Below, piece after piece: positions 2,857 to 38,279 of a stretch of DNA of 53,750 bases. The DNA lies in contig VGHK01000013.1 in NCBI GenBank assembly GCA_016868305.1, positions 1-53,750 on the forward strand, read 5' to 3'. This DNA is from Betaproteobacteria bacterium (GTDB lineage: Bacteria > Pseudomonadota > Gammaproteobacteria > Burkholderiales > Burkholderiaceae_A). Positions within the stretch are counted from its first letter, which is position 1. Each line of letters begins with the position of its first letter. The notes below the pieces were generated by a model. That model saw only the letters and a program-made list of their open reading frames with translations. It was not told the origin of the DNA and ran no database searches. A program made the position numbers and the translations under genes.

Positions 2857-3369
2857 ATGTCGGTATACCGATTTCAGATAGAGCGATCCACCTTCGAGGC
2901 TCTGGGCCCCACCCAGACCAACTCCCGGTCTGTCTTAGATTTTTTTGACGACAAAAAGCTCTCCAGCACGCAACGGCTGTTCTTCAAGCTCTGGTCGAGC
3001 AACAAGGTAAATACGACCGTCTTAGAGCCTGACAAGACAATTCTGCACGCCGGAGAGGTGCCCGACACCGGGTTTCTGATTCTCGCCGGCGAGGCCTATG
3101 TGGTGATTGGTGACGACACGTTAATTTTAGGCCCGGGCAGCGCCATTGGTATTGCTGAGGGGCTCTGCGATATTCCTATGCGCGCAAGCTATGTCTCTAA
3201 GACCGCGCTTACCGTTAAGGTTATTCCCATGCCCAATGCAATCCGTGAAGTCAGCCACGCCAACTCTGGGCTTAAGGGAATTTGCAGGCTCACGGCAAAG
3301 CGCATTCTTGATGATCGCCTCAAGGACATTCCGGCCCAGTTGCGGACAGATACGAACCCCCGCCCATGA
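2857..3369 (+). CDS. Small protein with a degenerate cyclic-nucleotide-binding-like fold (type A, copy 1)
   Basis: This 170-residue soluble protein looks like a single CRP-type beta-roll (cNMP_binding) domain with a short family-specific N-terminus (YRFQIERSTFEAL). The segment FLILAGEAYVVIGDDTLILGPG fits the beta-roll, and GIAEGLCDIPMRASYV occupies the phosphate-binding-cassette position, keeping the Glu and Arg-Ala-Ser but not the canonical FGE spacing. There is no helix-turn-helix, so it is not a CRP-like regulator. It is paralogous to the gene at 3862 (shared SGLKGICR, IAEGLC, FQIE). Its stop overlaps the ATG of the next gene by 4 bp (ATGA), so the pair is translationally coupled. No clear Shine-Dalgarno precedes ATG 2857. 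Ligand and function are unknown. Confidence 0.75.
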   Translation: MSVYRFQIERSTFEALGPTQTNSRSVLDFFDDKKLSSTQRLFFKLWSSNKVNTTVLEPDKTILHAGEVPDTGFLILAGEAYVVIGDDTLILGPGSAIGIAEGLCDIPMRASYVSKTALTVKVIPMPNAIREVSHANSGLKGICRLTAKRILDDRLKDIPAQLRTDTNPRP

Positions 3370-3803
3370 CACCCACCGAAGTCGCCTACCCTGCAGCCTC
3401 GCTGCTCTTTCGCAAGGGAGATCCGGCCAAGGCTTTCTATGTCTTACAGTCCGGAAGAGTAGCCCTCTTTAATTCTGCTCTGCAAGGATATGGACAGGCA
3501 AAGTCTGGCCCACAGCCGAGCCCCGCAAAGGCACCATCGCTCTCCTCTCCGGCGTTGGAATCAGCGCTTGCCATCCTTGCCCCCGGAGACTCGTTTGGCG
3601 AGCAGGCGATTCTGTCGGGTGGGGTACGCAGCGTCTCTGCCTGGGCTATTGAGCCAACCGTCTGTCTCGAGATCACCGCTGACGGGCTTCGCAACATGCT
3701 TGACAACCAACCGGGTCTGCTCAAACCTCTTATCGAAGCCCTGCTGCTGCAGCTTTATATGAAGAACGAGTTTCGATCTATTCATGCCCCCGACTTTCTC
3801 TAG
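3366..3803 (+). CDS. Cyclic nucleotide-binding domain protein (type B, copy 1)
   Basis: This 145-residue protein is essentially one cNMP-binding domain. The start (LLFRKGDPAKAFYVLQSGRVALF) is the usual first half of the beta-roll. GDSFGEQAILSGGVRSVSAWA is split here only by my reading: FGEQAIL followed by RSVSA matches the phosphate-binding cassette, with Glu and Arg in place. An insert of about 25 Pro/Ser/Ala-rich residues interrupts the roll between these parts. The C-terminal helix (LKPLIEALLLQLYMKNEF) is shared with the gene at 4361. There is no DNA-binding domain. It is coupled to the preceding gene by a 4-bp overlap, suggesting the two proteins form a complex. The ligand is unknown, though cAMP or cGMP is plausible. 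Confidence 0.78.
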   Translation: MTPTEVAYPAASLLFRKGDPAKAFYVLQSGRVALFNSALQGYGQAKSGPQPSPAKAPSLSSPALESALAILAPGDSFGEQAILSGGVRSVSAWAIEPTVCLEITADGLRNMLDNQPGLLKPLIEALLLQLYMKNEFRSIHAPDFL

Positions 3804-3861
3804 CTATCACCAGGCCTGCCACCTGACTCAAGAATAGCCCTAGCCTTCCGATTACGAGAAG

Positions 3862-4350
3862 ATGGAAAAACCAGTCGAATTCCAAATCGAGAAATCCGCC
3901 TTCGACGACCTGAGCCTCACCGCCCTGCGCCACGAGAGCGTGGCCTTTTTCGATGAGAACAAGCTCAGCGGCCAGGAGCGCCTCTTCTACCGCGTCTGGG
4001 CCAGCCGGCAACTGCAGACCGGAGTCTTCGAACCCGGGCAGGTCATCCAGCGCAAAAACCAGGTTCCCAGCTACGGCTTTGTGGTCGTGTCGGGCAACGT
4101 AGAGGTAGAAGACGACGATGGCCATTACCTTCTCGGCGCGGGAACCGTCATCGGCCTTGCAGAAGGCCTATGCGAACTGCCCTCGCGATATACCTACGTG
4201 GCCCACGATGCGGTAAGCTGCAAGCTAATTCCCATAGATATTGCCTGCCGTGAAATCGGGCGTATCAACTCGGGGCTTAAGGGTATCTGCCGGTTCACGG
4301 TGCAGCGCATCCTGGGCGAGCGGGCTGCCTGCCCCGACTTTATGCGGTAA
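3862..4350 (+). CDS. Small protein with a degenerate cyclic-nucleotide-binding-like fold (type A, copy 2)
   Basis: This 162-residue product is a diverged paralogue of the protein at 2857. Shared landmarks run in the same order: FQIE(K/R)S, FFD(D/E), L(F)(Y/F)(K/R)(L/V)W, the beta-roll with a GF-hydrophobic run, G(I/L)AEGLC(D/E)(I/L)P and NSGLKGICR. By eye about four in ten positions agree, so the duplication is old. The putative ligand cassette (GLAEGLCELPSRYTYV) again deviates from the CRP consensus. No HTH, membrane segment or signal peptide is present. It lies 58 bp after the first pair and 10 bp before the type B gene at 4361, repeating the A-B order. Confidence 0.75.
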   Translation: MEKPVEFQIEKSAFDDLSLTALRHESVAFFDENKLSGQERLFYRVWASRQLQTGVFEPGQVIQRKNQVPSYGFVVVSGNVEVEDDDGHYLLGAGTVIGLAEGLCELPSRYTYVAHDAVSCKLIPIDIACREIGRINSGLKGICRFTVQRILGERAACPDFMR

Positions 4351-4360
4351 GGTAAGGGCT

Positions 4361-5284
4361 ATGGCAGAACCTATTTCTACCATGGAAGAAGTCTGTGAGC
4401 AGGCGACACTGCGCAATATGGTGATGCGCGAGGCTACCCGCCAGGCCTCCGAGAGCCTTCAGTCGGCCCTGCGAACCGTGGTGGGCTCAGACCAGGTGCC
4501 CGAAGAATTCCTTCCAAAGATCGAGGCGCCCGCACCCGATATCGAGGCTCTGCTTGCCCTCTTCGCGCCCGAGCAGTCCGGAGACGAAAATGTTGCTGCT
4601 GCAGTGCCAGCGGTTCCAGCAACCCCCTTGCCGCCGAGGGTGCAGGCCGCACCTACCGCCCTGGCCAAAAGCCCAGTCCCGCAGTTGCAGCCCGCCGAGG
4701 CGCCCAAACCAGCTACCGTTACCGCAAAAGAGCCCGCACCGGCGACTGCGCCTATGGCGGCTTCGCAGACGAAAACAGCTTCCGACATTACGGCCCCAAA
4801 TGAGCCTCTGGCCACAGACAAAAAAATCACATTCCAGCCCATGTCCTGGCCTTCTTTTGGGTCATCGCAGCCCGCCCCATCAGCCAAGGCAAGCGAAAAA
4901 CCAGCCCCGCCCATTCCAGCCCTCGGGCCCAACGAGGTCTACTTCGCACCCGATGAGATCCTGTTCCATAAAGGAGACCCGGCAGACCGGTTCTATATGA
5001 TTCGTCAGGGCGAGGTAGGTCTTTTCGAACCCAGCACCCAGAAACAGATTGCCACCCTGAGCATGGGAACCTCTTTTGGCGAACAGGCTATCCTGGTGGG
5101 CGGCGTGCGCAGTGTGTCGGCGCGGGCAATTGGTGGTGTGGTCTGCCTTGCTATTTCGGCCCAGACCCTCAGAGATATGCTTGAGGTAGAACAGGGATCG
5201 ATTAAGCCCGTGTTTGAATCGCTCTTGCTCCAGCTTTACCTACACAACGACCTGCACGCCCGCGGGCATAAGTACAACGCCTAG
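4361..5284 (+). CDS. Cyclic nucleotide-binding domain protein with long N-terminal Ala/Pro-rich extension (type B, copy 2)
   Basis: The 307-residue product has three parts: a helical, acidic N-terminus (about residues 1-75, with ATLRNMVMREATRQASESL), a long Ala/Pro-rich linker of low complexity (about 75-185), and a C-terminal cNMP-binding domain (about 190-290) with FHKGDPADRFYMIRQGEVGL and a good phosphate-binding cassette, FGEQAILVGGVRSVSARA. The C-terminal domain is clearly homologous to the protein at 3366, which lacks the extension. I chose ATG 4361, preceded by a purine-rich stretch and 10 bp after the previous stop, over an upstream in-frame ATG inside that gene. The disordered tether could let the sensor domain reach a partner. 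No output domain is recognised. Confidence 0.78.
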   Translation: MAEPISTMEEVCEQATLRNMVMREATRQASESLQSALRTVVGSDQVPEEFLPKIEAPAPDIEALLALFAPEQSGDENVAAAVPAVPATPLPPRVQAAPTALAKSPVPQLQPAEAPKPATVTAKEPAPATAPMAASQTKTASDITAPNEPLATDKKITFQPMSWPSFGSSQPAPSAKASEKPAPPIPALGPNEVYFAPDEILFHKGDPADRFYMIRQGEVGLFEPSTQKQIATLSMGTSFGEQAILVGGVRSVSARAIGGVVCLAISAQTLRDMLEVEQGSIKPVFESLLLQLYLHNDLHARGHKYNA

Positions 5285-5296
5285 CCCGAACACCCG

Positions 5297-6115
5297 CTAT
5301 AAGGTTAGTTGCTGCCCCTCTTTGGCAACAAATGCATCAGGCCACATGTCGTGCGCCTCTTCTGCGATGCGATCCATAACGTTGTCATCATGATCAGGAT
5401 CGTGATGAAAGATTGCCAGCTGCTCGACTTCTGCCGCCTGGCATAGCCGAACACCCTGCTGCCAGGTGGAATGGCCCCATCCAGCATAGCGAAAGAACTC
5501 CTGATCGGTATACGTACTGTCGTATATCACCAGGTTTGCACCATGAATCAAGGTAAGAATCTCGGGGTCAAGCTTTCCTGGCCGATGCTCGGTGTCGGTA
5601 ACGTAACAGACCGACACGCCGTCATAGTCAACGCGATAGCCTGTAGCGCCTTGGGGATGGTTTAACGGCGCGGTGCGCAGCACAATACCATCGCCAAGGT
5701 CGATAGTCTGCCCTGCCATAAAGTCACGAAAGATAATGTCAGCGGCAAACCGGTCTATCGCAATGGGAAAAAACGGCTCGGACATCTGCTCTGCCAGAGC
5801 CTCTTGAATGGTCAACCCCTGAGCCTGTAGATTTCCGGCCCATACCGCAAGGCTGAAGTCGGCCTGATAAAGCGGCTTAAAAAAAGGCAGGCCCTGAATA
5901 TGATCCCAGTGCACATGAGACAGGAATAAATCGGCCGCAAGGAATCCCTGAGACTGCACCCAAGGGCCCAATGGCCGAATACCAGAACCCGCATCGAAGA
6001 TAAGAAGCCTATCTTTACAGGCTATGGTGACACAGCTGGTATTGCCACCATAACGCAGGTAGCTACTAGAGGCACACGGTATGGTTCCCCGAACCCCCCA
6101 GAACCGAACCCTCAT
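5297..6115 (-). CDS. MBL-fold metallohydrolase (PhnP/RNase Z-like; possible class II cyclic-nucleotide phosphodiesterase)
   Basis: This 272-residue protein is a soluble zinc hydrolase of the metallo-beta-lactamase fold. The N-terminus MRVRFWGVRGTIPCASSS and the GGNTSC motif are typical of the COG1235 group. The metal site reads SHVHWDH (His67, His69, Asp71, His72), with further ligands expected in VTDTEH and in AIFHHDPDHDD. The group includes phosphodiesterases of cyclic nucleotides and cyclic phosphates. It is convergent with the cNMP-binding genes (12 bp between stops), so a role in removing the nucleotide those proteins sense is an attractive inference. The family assignment is firm; the substrate is not. 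Confidence 0.88.
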   Translation of the reverse strand: MRVRFWGVRGTIPCASSSYLRYGGNTSCVTIACKDRLLIFDAGSGIRPLGPWVQSQGFLAADLFLSHVHWDHIQGLPFFKPLYQADFSLAVWAGNLQAQGLTIQEALAEQMSEPFFPIAIDRFAADIIFRDFMAGQTIDLGDGIVLRTAPLNHPQGATGYRVDYDGVSVCYVTDTEHRPGKLDPEILTLIHGANLVIYDSTYTDQEFFRYAGWGHSTWQQGVRLCQAAEVEQLAIFHHDPDHDDNVMDRIAEEAHDMWPDAFVAKEGQQLTL

Positions 6116-30731: not shown

Positions 30732-30828
30732 GAATTACGGAATTACGGTGACAGTTGGAATTACGGTGACAGTTTACTTAATTCCCGTAGGGAATTAAGT
30801 AAACTGTCACCGTAATTCACCGTAATTC
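30732..30828. repeat. Structured intergenic palindromic repeat, copy 2 (REP/RAYT-like)
   Basis: A perfect 29-bp inverted repeat (30758-30786 with 30790-30818, loop GTA) is preceded by tandem GAATTACG units (30732-30747) and two direct copies of GAATTACGGTGACAGTT (30740-30756, 30758-30774), and followed by two copies of CACCGTAATT (30808-30827). It matches copy 1 (2605-2717) in order and core sequence. The differences are consistent: GAATTACG replaces GATTACG throughout, and the stem tip CCC/GGG replaces CTC/GAG with pairing kept. Confidence 0.85.
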
Positions 30829-34569: not shown

Positions 34570-35505
34570 CTAATAGACGGCGGGCACAATCAGTTCTTTG
34601 GGCACGGGATGCCGAATATAGTCGGGGTTTTTCACCCGCGCCGGCAGCACCACCTCAGGGTGTTCCAGTTCCTCATAGTGAATCAGGCTTAACAGGTGGG
34701 CCATGTAGTTTAGCCGCGCCCGCTTTTTGTCGTTACCCTCGACTACCCACCAACGGGCCTCGGGAATATGGCTGCGCTCGAGCATGGTTTCTTTGGCCTT
34801 GGTGTAGGCCTCCCAGCGCCGCCGCGACTCCAGGTCCATGGGCGAGAGCTTCCATTGTTTTAACGGATCTTTAATGCGCATGGTAAAGCGCACATGCTGC
34901 TCCTCATCGCCGATCGAAAACCAGTATTTGATTAGCAGAATTCCCGACCGCACCAGCATCTTTTCAAACTCCGGCACCGTGCGAAAAAACTCCTCGTATT
35001 CTTCATCGGTGCAAAAGCCCATCACCCGCTCCACCCCCGCCCGGTTGTACCAGCTGCGGTCAAAGAGCACGATCTCGCCGGCCGCTGGCAGGTGCGGAAT
35101 ATAACGTTGAAAGTACCACTGGGTGCGCTCGCGCTCATTGGGCGCGGGCAGCGCCACCACGCGACAGACCCGCGGGTTAAGCCGCTGGGTAATGCGCTTA
35201 ATTGCCCCGCCCTTGCCTGCCGCGTCCCGGCCCTCAAAGAGCACCACCACCTTGAGCTTCTTGGCAACCACCCAGTCTTGCAGCTTTACCAGTTCGCCCT
35301 GAAGCCGAAAAAGTTCTTTAAAGTACAGGCGTCGGTCAATTGCCCCGTCGGCCGTTGGCCCTTGGGGAGGCATGTCCATAAGAAGCTCATCGAGCCGATC
35401 GTCGTCAAGCTCCATTTCGAGCTCTTCGTCGTAGCTATCGATCAGGTCAGCATGGGCGCGATGCTGTAGAGAAACGTCTGTTGGCCCCGGAGTCTTGTTT
35501 TTCAT
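34570..35505 (-). CDS. ppk2: Polyphosphate kinase 2 (PPK2 class I-like), copy 2
   Basis: This 311-residue paralogue of the protein at 29156 shares the same active-site wording: FEGRDAAGKGGAIKR for Walker A, RSWYNRAGVERVMGFCT and KLSPMDLESRRRW. It differs by an acidic N-terminal extension (about 1-50, with DEELEMELDDDRLDELL) and a different C-terminus (PDYIRHPVPKELIVPAVY). The N-terminal acidic segment followed by RRLYFKELFRLQGELVKLQDWV is usual for class I enzymes. It is 44 bp downstream of pepN on the same strand. Two PPK2 enzymes within about 4.5 kb suggest different nucleotide preference or direction; which is which cannot be read from sequence. Confidence 0.94.
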   Translation of the reverse strand: MKNKTPGPTDVSLQHRAHADLIDSYDEELEMELDDDRLDELLMDMPPQGPTADGAIDRRLYFKELFRLQGELVKLQDWVVAKKLKVVVLFEGRDAAGKGGAIKRITQRLNPRVCRVVALPAPNERERTQWYFQRYIPHLPAAGEIVLFDRSWYNRAGVERVMGFCTDEEYEEFFRTVPEFEKMLVRSGILLIKYWFSIGDEEQHVRFTMRIKDPLKQWKLSPMDLESRRRWEAYTKAKETMLERSHIPEARWWVVEGNDKKRARLNYMAHLLSLIHYEELEHPEVVLPARVKNPDYIRHPVPKELIVPAVY

Positions 35506-35549
35506 GGAAACGAGTCTGCTCCAAGTTCATTAAGATTCCATGACAAATA

Positions 35550-38279
35550 TCAAACATCGAGAAACCGGCTACAGACCTCTGCAACATCTGGCGGCAGGCC
35601 CGGCGTGGCGGCCAGGGCCTCGATCGCCTGTTGCATCGCGGCCCTGCGGCTGGGCTCAAAGGTGCCCCAGCGGTCCAGCGAACGGGCCAGCCGGGCGGCC
35701 AGCTGCGAGTTACGCAGGGCAAGCGCCCCGAGCGTCTCGGCCCATAGCCGATAGCCATGGCCATCGGACCGGTGAAACCCCGATAGGCTTGCCATGAAAT
35801 ACACGCCCAAGACCGCCCGTACCCGATTGGGATTGGCAAGGTCGTACAAGGGATGGGCCAGCAGGCTCTGCACCCGTGCAAGGATCGTGTAGCCCTCCTG
35901 GTCGTGAATTCGCGGCGTGGAAATCTGAACCGAAAACCACTTGTCCATCGATAGCGGATCCTGGGCATAGCGCTGGGCAAAGTCATCAAGCCCGCGCGCG
36001 GCCGCCTGCGGCGCGACATGCTCCAGGCTCACCAGGCCAGCCAGGCAGGCCATGCGCCGGGTCATATTGGTTGCCCGCTGATAGCGACGCCACAAGGCCT
36101 CCGCACGGTCTGCATCGGGGGCAAGCAGGGTCGCCATCGACTGCGCCAGATGGCCCAGGCTGCGACGGCCAATATCGATGGCATTTGGAGAATAGGGCTT
36201 GTCGTCTGCGGCATCGTTGTGCAGATCCAATTCGCGCCAATGGCCTTCCATGGCCAGGGCCATTGCCAGTCGCAGCGCCTCCAGGCGGGCGCGGATCTGC
36301 ACCGGATCCACTGCATGGCCTTCGGCCGCCCAGGCCTCGACCACCGTATTGTCGGCGGGCACTGCCAGGGCAAGCGCCTTAAAGGCATCGCTGAGGTCTG
36401 GGCTGGTGAGCACCCGAGCAAGGGTCTGCATCACCGCCTGCCTGTCATCGGCCAAAGCTAAGGCGGGCATCAGCTGACCCATCATCAAGCGCTGGCAGGC
36501 CTCCCAACGGTTAAAGGGGTCTGGGTCGTGGCCTGCAAGAACGCCCAGCTGGGTAGTGGTATAGGGATAGTCCAGCGCCACAGGTGCCGAAAAATGACGC
36601 AGCAGCGAGGGGATGGGCGCGGCCCCACCACGCTGCTCGGGCAGATCAAGGGCAAGGGTAACGGTGGCTTCATCGATCAGCAGCACCTGGCCTGCAGAGA
36701 CCGATTGGGCTAGGCGGGTACCGGCCCCTTGGGGTAAGGCAATGTCATCGCCCGAAGAAGACAGCAGCCCCCAGACCAGGGGAATGGGCAAAGGCAGCTT
36801 CTGCGGGCTTCTGGGGTCGAGCTGCTGGGTCAGTTCCAGGCAGTACCGACCCGTTTCTGCATCCCAGGTGTCACGTACCTCGAGCCGGGGCGTACCCGGC
36901 GTGTCATACCAGCGCATAAACGGGGTAAAGAGCTCCGAGCGGCCGTTCGCATCGAGAATCGAAGAGACAAAGTCTTCGCAGGTGGCCGCCTGTCCGTCAT
37001 GCCGCGCAAAGTACAGATCCATGCCCTTGCGAAATCCCGCAACCCCCAAAAGAGTCTGCAGCATGCGAATCACTTCGGCGCCTTTTTCATAAACCGTGGC
37101 CGTGTAGAAGTTGCGTATCTCCTGGTACTCGGCGGGGCGAATCGGATGGGCCATCGGGCCAGCATCTTCCGGGAACTGATGGGCACGTAGGGTGCGCACG
37201 TCTTCAATTCGCTTCACCGCCCTGCTGCTGGCGGCCTGCTCTGCCGTCAGGCCCTCGGCCAGCATATCGGCGGTAAATTCCTGGTCCCGCAACACCGTGA
37301 GCCCCTCTTTCAGGGTGAGCTGAAACCAGTCGCGGCAGGTAATGCGATTCCCCGTCCAGTTATGAAAGTACTCATGGCCAATCACCGCCTGCACCAGCTC
37401 GTAGTCTTTGTCGGTGGCCGTATCGGGGTCGGCCAGAACATACTTGGTGTTAAAAAGGTTCAGCCCCTTATTCTCCATGGCGCCGGAGTTAAAGTCAGGC
37501 ACCGCCACAATCATGAAACGCTCAAGGTCGAGCTCCAGGCCAAACCGTTTTTCGTCCCAGAACACCGAATGCTTCAGGCTCTCCAGGGCATGGCCCGCGC
37601 GCACCAGGTCTTCGGGCTTGGTATAGACCTGCAAAAGCTTCGGCGCGCCACTTTGGCTAGTGATCGTTTCTTCAATACACGACAGCGATGCAGCCACCAG
37701 GGCAAACAGATAACTGGGCTTGGGAAAGGGGTCGTGCCAGACCGCGGTTTTAATGCCGTCTTTGGTCTGCTCAGAGATAAGGTTTCCGTTGGAGAGCAAC
37801 ACCGGAAAGGCCTCTGCAGGGCCGCGCAGGGTGACCGTGTAGCAGGTCAGTACATCGGGCCGGTCGAGAAAATAAGTGATCCGCCGAAATCCTTGCGACT
37901 CACACTGGGTATAGAGCCCACCCCGGCTGGCGTAGAGGCCCATGAGCTCGGTGTTGGCGGTGGGGTTTAGCCGAGTCTGCAGCTTGAGCCGCCCACTATC
38001 TGCGTCTTTGAGGACAAATACCGTGGGCGATACCGTAAAGGCCTCTGCCGCAAGGGGCGTATCGTCCCGCCAGGCGGTTACAAACTCCAGGGCATCACCC
38101 GTAAGTACCAGGTCGCATGCCTGCCCCGAGACAGAGGCAAATCCAAAGTCTGCTAACACCATGGTCTCGGTAAGGCCCAGACTGAAGTCCAGGGAAATGT
38201 CGGTAATGCGATGTGTTGGCGGCTGATAGTCCAGCCGACGAATCAGTGGGGCAGACAAACCAGACTGACCTTCTTTCAT
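35550..38279 (-). CDS. pepN: Aminopeptidase N (M1 family)
   Basis: PepN is a cytoplasmic zinc aminopeptidase. The 909-residue length is normal for the proteobacterial form. The substrate-binding GAMEN motif is at 266-270 (in FNSGAMENKGLNLFN), the zinc ligands are HEYFH (302-306) and Glu325 in LKEGLTV, and VAVPDF and WHDPFPKPSYLFALVA are typical. The C-terminal domain with NRWEACQRL, DPLSMDKWFSVQ and NPNRVRAVLG matches the DUF3458/PepN C-terminus. ATG 38279 has AAGGAG upstream. It lies head to head with the thioredoxin-like gene at 38345 (65 bp between starts). Confidence 0.97.
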   Translation of the reverse strand: MKEGQSGLSAPLIRRLDYQPPTHRITDISLDFSLGLTETMVLADFGFASVSGQACDLVLTGDALEFVTAWRDDTPLAAEAFTVSPTVFVLKDADSGRLKLQTRLNPTANTELMGLYASRGGLYTQCESQGFRRITYFLDRPDVLTCYTVTLRGPAEAFPVLLSNGNLISEQTKDGIKTAVWHDPFPKPSYLFALVAASLSCIEETITSQSGAPKLLQVYTKPEDLVRAGHALESLKHSVFWDEKRFGLELDLERFMIVAVPDFNSGAMENKGLNLFNTKYVLADPDTATDKDYELVQAVIGHEYFHNWTGNRITCRDWFQLTLKEGLTVLRDQEFTADMLAEGLTAEQAASSRAVKRIEDVRTLRAHQFPEDAGPMAHPIRPAEYQEIRNFYTATVYEKGAEVIRMLQTLLGVAGFRKGMDLYFARHDGQAATCEDFVSSILDANGRSELFTPFMRWYDTPGTPRLEVRDTWDAETGRYCLELTQQLDPRSPQKLPLPIPLVWGLLSSSGDDIALPQGAGTRLAQSVSAGQVLLIDEATVTLALDLPEQRGGAAPIPSLLRHFSAPVALDYPYTTTQLGVLAGHDPDPFNRWEACQRLMMGQLMPALALADDRQAVMQTLARVLTSPDLSDAFKALALAVPADNTVVEAWAAEGHAVDPVQIRARLEALRLAMALAMEGHWRELDLHNDAADDKPYSPNAIDIGRRSLGHLAQSMATLLAPDADRAEALWRRYQRATNMTRRMACLAGLVSLEHVAPQAAARGLDDFAQRYAQDPLSMDKWFSVQISTPRIHDQEGYTILARVQSLLAHPLYDLANPNRVRAVLGVYFMASLSGFHRSDGHGYRLWAETLGALALRNSQLAARLARSLDRWGTFEPSRRAAMQQAIEALAATPGLPPDVAEVCSRFLDV

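Follow-up and report, generated by a model that had tools for sequence, protein, structure and literature searches.

How a bacterium could use small proteins of the cyclic-nucleotide-binding (CNB) fold that are encoded in pairs, one partner carrying an ordinary ligand cassette and the other a deviant one, is the question raised by positions 2857–5284 of contig VGHK01000013.1 from a Betaproteobacteria bacterium (assembly GCA_016868305.1). The analysed stretch of this contig, hereafter the window, is 53 750 nt long and contains two such pairs, A1/B1 and A2/B2 (Table 1). The original prediction, made from the letters of the sequence, described them as a tandemly duplicated A-B-A-B set of split sensors. 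As detailed below, we consider it rather likely that A and B are the subunits of a two-subunit cyclic-nucleotide receptor, a reading that is supported by the fold of both proteins, the difference between their cassettes, their linkage and co-inheritance, their natural fusions, and the genes that surround them.

The A and B proteins

The four open reading frames (ORFs) are all on the forward strand in the predicted order, and the stop/start coupling claimed for the first pair is present, the A1 and B1 genes sharing 4 nt (ATGA). The A2 and B2 genes are spaced by 10 nt; the start of B2 was set at the ATG at 4361, while the mechanically called ORF begins at the TTG at 4241.

Table 1. Genes of the two A/B pairs and the adjoining hydrolase gene in the window.
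Product	Position	Strand	Basis
A1, CNB-fold-family subunit, non-canonical cassette IGIAEGLC	2857..3369	+	ORF; PF00027 21.4 bits (below cut-off); A profile 238 bits, A1 itself being in the profile
B1, short CNB subunit, canonical FGE...R cassette, beta-roll insert	3366..3803	+	ORF; PF00027 65.0 bits in two stretches; alignments
A2, CNB-fold subunit, non-canonical cassette IGLAEGLC	3862..4350	+	ORF; PF00027 31.2 bits; AlphaFold2 model, predicted local distance difference test (pLDDT) 74.7; Z up to 13.9 to CNB domains
B2, long CNB subunit	4361..5284	+	ORF; PF00027 65.9 bits; model pLDDT 53.9 overall; Foldseek CNB matches
Metallo-beta-lactamase-fold (MBL) hydrolase, PF12706, convergent with B2; proposed cyclic-nucleotide phosphodiesterase partner	5297..6115	-	Pfam; HxHxDH motif

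The Pfam cut-off for the CNB domain (PF00027, 27.5 bits) is passed by B1, B2 and A2, but not by A1; A1 and A2, which are 42–44% identical, each show in addition a sub-threshold cupin match. The AlphaFold2 model of A2, poor in its last 30 residues, matches the CNB domains of SLC9C1, HCN, the regulatory subunit of PKA (PKA-R) and others, and the predicted kinship of type A with this fold is thus upheld. Judging from this model, and for A1 from its identity to A2, the two A proteins are one family with the CNB fold. By their sequences, B1 and B2 are ordinary proteins of the cyclic-nucleotide-binding type. The model of B2 is poor overall, but still gives CNB matches in Foldseek; it predicts an N-terminal helix (residues 8–41), a low-confidence linker of about 115 residues, the CNB domain and a C-terminal helix. 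The Pfam match of B1 is split by some 25 extra residues within its beta roll, which none of the 17 further B proteins in the alignment has.

The two types were compared in 22 A/B pairs from 15 genomes of four families (12 genomes of the window's own family, together with G253, G349 and G310); this set excludes the two fusions (G200 and G202), a broken A next to a B in G201, a cut A in G136 and a contig-edge B in G206. As to the B proteins, 14 of the 22 are short (116–147 aa), and eight are long (184–307 aa) and have in common an N-terminal motif that the short form does not have (the G202 copy has only its second half).

The cassette motif of cyclic-nucleotide-binding proteins has been published as FGE...R (PMC2246266). 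Both B1 and B2 carry the Glu and the Arg of this motif, within the FGEQAIL and R-S-V-S strings that had been read for type B, and the deviant cassette reported for type A is found in A1 and A2 as I-G-[LI]-A-E-G-L-C. Among the tabulated proteins, the Glu is kept in all 21 B proteins that have a beta roll and in none of the 22 A proteins, all of which have Leu or Ile instead. The Arg at +9 is present in 20 of the same 21 B proteins, the sole exception being pair 3 of the window's genome with a His, and in ungapped alignment it is missing from 22 of 22 A proteins; ten of these, including A1 and A2, have an Arg one position later. On this comparison, the two residues that contact the cyclic phosphate, Glu and Arg, are absent from A and retained in B. 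The A cassette is itself conserved (G-[LI]-[AS]-[EQ]-G in 22 of 22), and, compared by eye with the consensus cassettes of 30 families in Table 1 of the same paper, it had no counterpart. An invariant column among 18 aligned A proteins is the glycine of the beta2-beta3 turn (the placement is ours), a residue that the paper links to cAMP coupling (PMC2246266); its retention would fit a descent of A from a cAMP-binding ancestor.

Distribution and linkage

A profile of the A proteins was run on the 26 genomes available for the family and, for the order, on 399 genomes. Because it matches genomes outside its own training set at up to 222 bits (G219), the A family is not a chance product. In the family, 13 of the 26 genomes gave a match, counted here as 12, with a weak match in a 620-aa frame of G064 left out. 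All seven CNB matches in the window's genome, distributed over six proteins, belong to A/B pairs, the third of which lies on contig C14; no CNB gene was found outside the three pairs in this genome, which is 97% complete. In the order, 32 of the 399 genomes had some match, and of these the neighbourhoods were read in four with strong matches, G253, G349, G310 and G136, from four other families, and in four with weak matches, G333, G144, G362 and G051, which appear to be other CNB proteins. Class-wide (369 genomes, E 1e-8), the only match besides the window's genome was a longer CNB protein of G697 (41.9 bits).

With 44 bits as the threshold, there are 25 A-type matches, 20 within the family and five outside it; 24 have B beside them or fused to them, and the remaining one, in G136, is cut by the contig end. 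Unlinked genes in most genomes, which would have refuted the original prediction, were thus not seen. In all 22 tabulated pairs A is upstream of B, with gaps between the ORFs from -61 to +46 nt. The fusions occur in both orders, B-A in G200 (284 aa) and A-B in G202 (271 aa, with a weak A half of 22 bits). A reverse check starting from B gave 29 loci among the matches listed, 13 of which score at least 160 bits and the others at most 62; in 12 of the high-scoring loci A adjoins B or is fused to it, and the thirteenth is at a contig edge.

Evolution of the pairs

The pairwise distances among the A proteins and those among their B partners (21 pairs, the pair with a roll-less B having been dropped) correlate with r 0.944, a value reached by none of 5000 permutations, the largest of which gave 0.52; no other gene pair served as a control. 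Nearest neighbours of A and B agree in 16 of the 21 pairs.

In a joint tree, pair 2 groups with G203_1 (support 84/73) and pair 3 with G201_2 and G202 (support 81/94), and the placement of pair 1 is unresolved. A tree in which pairs 1 and 2 are forced to group is worse by 18.6 log units (approximately unbiased (AU) test, p 0.044; the G310 row is a flagged long branch). The tandem duplication that had been proposed for this locus thus fits its layout only, and a recent event is weakly rejected by the tree, with the test near its limit. On these sequences, pairs 1 and 2 are probably old paralogues, and their tandem layout not a fresh duplication. In G203, the closest relative of pair 2 directly follows pepN- and PPK2-like genes (L052 4787-8562; named by sequence look); the corresponding genes of the window are at 34570-38279, about 30 kb from the pair.

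Genomic context

No helix-turn-helix (HTH), cyclase or enzyme domain was found by Pfam at E up to 1 in A1, B1, A2 or B2, as had been expected. The claim that no output domain is present holds for the four proteins but is incomplete, as a candidate output may adjoin them: the MBL hydrolase gene, 12 bp downstream of B2, is of a kind that recurs near A/B or other CNB genes. Its product matches PF12706 at 68.4 bits and has the HxHxDH motif. The family contains ten homologues in nine of the 26 genomes, and all eight that occur in A/B-bearing genomes are at -13 to 169 bp from an A or B gene. Their orientation varies: the window has a convergent layout, G212 (twice) and G216–G219 have a divergent one, and in G200 the MBL gene is co-directional, with the B-A fusion on one side and an A-B pair on the other. 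Overall, a CNB or A/B gene adjoins the MBL gene or is one gene off in 14 of 16 cases; the exceptions are G211, with none on a 7.4-kb contig, and G260, whose contig ends beside the MBL gene; these linkages were counted without a random-gene control. In G208 a single CNB gene adjoins the homologue and a CHASE2 cyclase stands one gene beyond it, and in five of the six f11 genomes a small CNB gene is one gene away, with a cyclase adjoining in G289. In G349, the pair is followed by an MBL-fold gene whose best match is Lactamase_B_2 (60.3 bits), and which also matches PDEase_II at 52.3 bits (cut-off 23.7), the best stretch covering only 63 of 340 positions.

The presence of A/B is not tied to that of a class III cyclase across the family, as such a cyclase was found in seven of the 12 A/B-bearing genomes and in eight of the 14 others. 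The MBL gene behaves differently: a cyclase is present in 9/9 genomes with MBL vs 6/17 others (Fisher p 0.0024) and, within the A/B-bearing genomes, in 7/7 with MBL vs 0/5 without (p 0.0013), kinship being ignored in both comparisons. Three genomes (G216, G218 and G219) contain a row composed of A/B, MBL, a two-partner secretion (TPS)-type exoprotein, a CHAT protein, a protein of 248 aa that gave no Pfam match, a CHASE2 cyclase and a ShlB-type transporter. The CHASE2-cyclase gene of this cluster is 9–11 kb on from the pair; Pfam was run on G216, and G218 and G219, whose contig ends inside the cyclase gene in the case of G219, were assigned by layout and cyclase score. In the window's genome, the CHASE2 cyclase is on another contig and adjoins a POTRA-type transporter gene. 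At L165 (3214-16845), the TPS exoprotein, a CHAT-TPR protein, the CHASE2 cyclase and the ShlB-type transporter stand beside A/B-MBL, so that cyclic-nucleotide signalling is there tied to a secretion cluster.

A different setting is found in G253, whose pair marks one end of a chemosensory cluster and is convergent with the cheA gene. CheW and CheR genes precede it, as does a response-regulator class III cyclase about 10 kb from the pair, and an HD-type phosphodiesterase-like gene is about 20 kb off. In G136, an HD gene 45% identical to that of G253 adjoins the cut A, and chemosensory genes follow about 10 kb on. Chemosensory genes are also beside the pair in G200, whose response-regulator class III cyclase, on another contig, is as in G253 (591 bits between the two); the names CheB, CheY, CheA outside G253, and CheW in G200, were given by sequence look, with no scan. 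At L177 (8713-14157), genes for a response regulator and a response-regulator class III cyclase lead into a chemosensory operon, and a 1236-aa PAS-rich histidine kinase is divergent from them; G200 has this cyclase too.

Upstream of the first pair, a gene for tRNA-Arg(CCT) is present at 2734-2809, preceded at 2639-2697 by an inverted repeat whose 28-nt arms match perfectly across a 3-nt loop; the repeat is in turn preceded by a direct copy of its own first 17 nt. A similar set with 1–2 mismatches recurs at 30741-30817, and none was obtained in shuffles; it may be a small mobile repeat. A promoter and terminator scan gave little information.

Related systems

The closest parallel is offered by GbpA and GbpB of Dictyostelium, in which, according to a review (PMC11988041), an MBL phosphodiesterase and two CNB domains form one chain and ligand binding to both domains activates the enzyme. 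The window likewise brings together an MBL-type enzyme and two CNB domains, but in separate genes, with one of the CNB proteins having a non-canonical cassette and with a role of the enzyme that is predicted here. A chain uniting MBL with two CNB domains was not met in the window, and both natural fusions join A and B only. The system of the window possibly works by analogy with GbpA and GbpB, of which it is not a member, its parts being on separate chains.

Two unlike CNB domains acting as a unit are also known from the PKA regulatory subunit and PKG, whose CNB domains are the best sequence matches of the A profile in the PDB (PKG, then PKA-R); here, however, the domains are on separate chains, and the A cassette is without Glu and Arg. 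With the CRP/FNR proteins A and B share the CNB fold, but Pfam found no HTH, for which A and the short B are too small beside their CNB domain, and a Crp-like transcription factor was accordingly rejected. The single small CNB proteins of G208 and five f11 genomes have the same MBL orthologue family near the CNB gene and, in G208 and G289, a cyclase in the same stretch; they differ in that one CNB protein, scoring 15–45 bits with the A and B profiles, replaces the pair. A Pycsar/CBASS defence function was discarded, PADLOC giving 17.6–19.7 bits to B1 and B2 over the CNB part and nothing for A1, A2 and MBL. PHROGs had no match for the A and B proteins, and a plasmid origin was also set aside, the B2 query yielding one Crp-like match in one plasmid.

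Proposed function

In the receptor that we propose, B would bind the cyclic nucleotide in its intact phosphate-binding cassette, and A, as a CNB-fold partner without the canonical phosphate contacts, would pair with B and carry or stabilise the signal. In the window's genome and in several relatives, the receptor would work in circuits with a class III cyclase (of the CHASE2 or response-regulator type) and a phosphodiesterase, and its most likely direct target would be the co-encoded phosphodiesterase, gated in trans. As a whole, the proposal that A and B are subunits of one stand-alone receptor in cyclase/phosphodiesterase circuits, with the co-encoded phosphodiesterase as likely target, seems to us somewhat probable. 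The gating of a phosphodiesterase, considered by itself as the output, is doubtful; it has the best positional support among the outputs, and the receptor probably acts on the hydrolase or on another partner. The most specific form of the idea appears rather unlikely, namely that A, B and MBL make up a three-gene, trans-acting cyclic-nucleotide-gated phosphodiesterase. This would be a split bacterial counterpart of GbpA/GbpB with a pseudo-receptor, or a reader of a second ligand, as one of its CNB subunits, and would serve CHASE2-cyclase circuits in some relatives and chemosensory cyclase circuits in others.

Several observations weigh against this proposal. The MBL protein of the window has no match to PDEase_II (PF02112) at E up to 1, and the solved proteins closest to it in sequence are ribonuclease Z, so that it might act on RNA or another phosphodiester instead. 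The HD-type proteins score 21.1 (G253) and 14.6 bits, under Pfam's 24.8. Five A/B-bearing genomes (G201, G202, G203, G204 and G207, 75–92% complete) gave neither a class I or III cyclase profile match nor an MBL homologue, so that some of the pairs would have to act otherwise, respond to another cyclase, or be decoupled. Around the pairs G000_3, G203_1, G203_2, G253_2 and G310 and those of G201, G202, G204 and G207, the two checks made, a phmmer search with the MBL protein and an inspection of ORF starts, showed no cyclase or phosphodiesterase gene. One B protein, G201_1 (L047 2350-2904), named B by its position and end motifs, has lost the beta roll while keeping the N-terminal motif and the C-terminal helix, and adjoins an intact A; it lies in one of the five genomes just mentioned, whose other two B proteins keep the roll. 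Finally, given the missing control, part of the correlation between A and B distances would be shared descent.

If the hydrolase is not the target, the signal could pass to another protein, either by the flexible linker and N-terminal helix that the long B possesses or by way of chemosensory proteins, which we regard as a serious, though less than even, prospect. The motif common to the eight long B proteins, the conservation of both ends in the roll-less B, the retention of A/B in genomes without MBL and the chemosensory genes that adjoin the pair in G200 and G253 and stand about 10 kb from it in G136 all favour such a target; however, the majority of B proteins, being short, have no such N-terminal part, and the chemosensory linkage is limited to three genomes. 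A might instead sense a second ligand other than a cyclic nucleotide, making A/B a two-input gate. The A cassette is conserved beyond the need of a drifting scaffold, and non-canonical CNB cassettes can bind other ligands, such as heme in CooA (PMC2246266); yet there is no clue to a ligand, and the same conservation could reflect the interface with B, so that we find a two-input gate fairly improbable.

Many CNB proteins are homodimers, and A and B could likewise be separate homomers that are neighbours through co-regulation only. The near-invariable linkage, the correlated distances and the fusions in both orders make this very unlikely. That the pairs are decaying remnants of CRP-like regulators is scarcely credible, since their motifs are conserved, their frames intact, and several genomes keep multiple pairs, even if one roll-less B, one broken A in G201 and the small metagenome-assembled genomes could be taken as signs of decay.

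The side-by-side occurrence of a normal and an altered CNB partner, often close to enzymes for the synthesis or breakdown of the messenger, suggests from sequence a bacterial receptor in two parts; the open-access literature searched gave no description of such a paired CNB module. As no other CNB gene was found, the three pairs may be the only CNB-fold cyclic-nucleotide receptors of the window's genome. If the proposal is true, this would be a bacterial receptor made of two unlike CNB subunits, a receptor and a pseudo-receptor, outside transcription factors and channels. It would then become testable how a CNB domain that has lost its ligand contacts could stay indispensable, and how a second-messenger circuit holds its own receptor-controlled breakdown.

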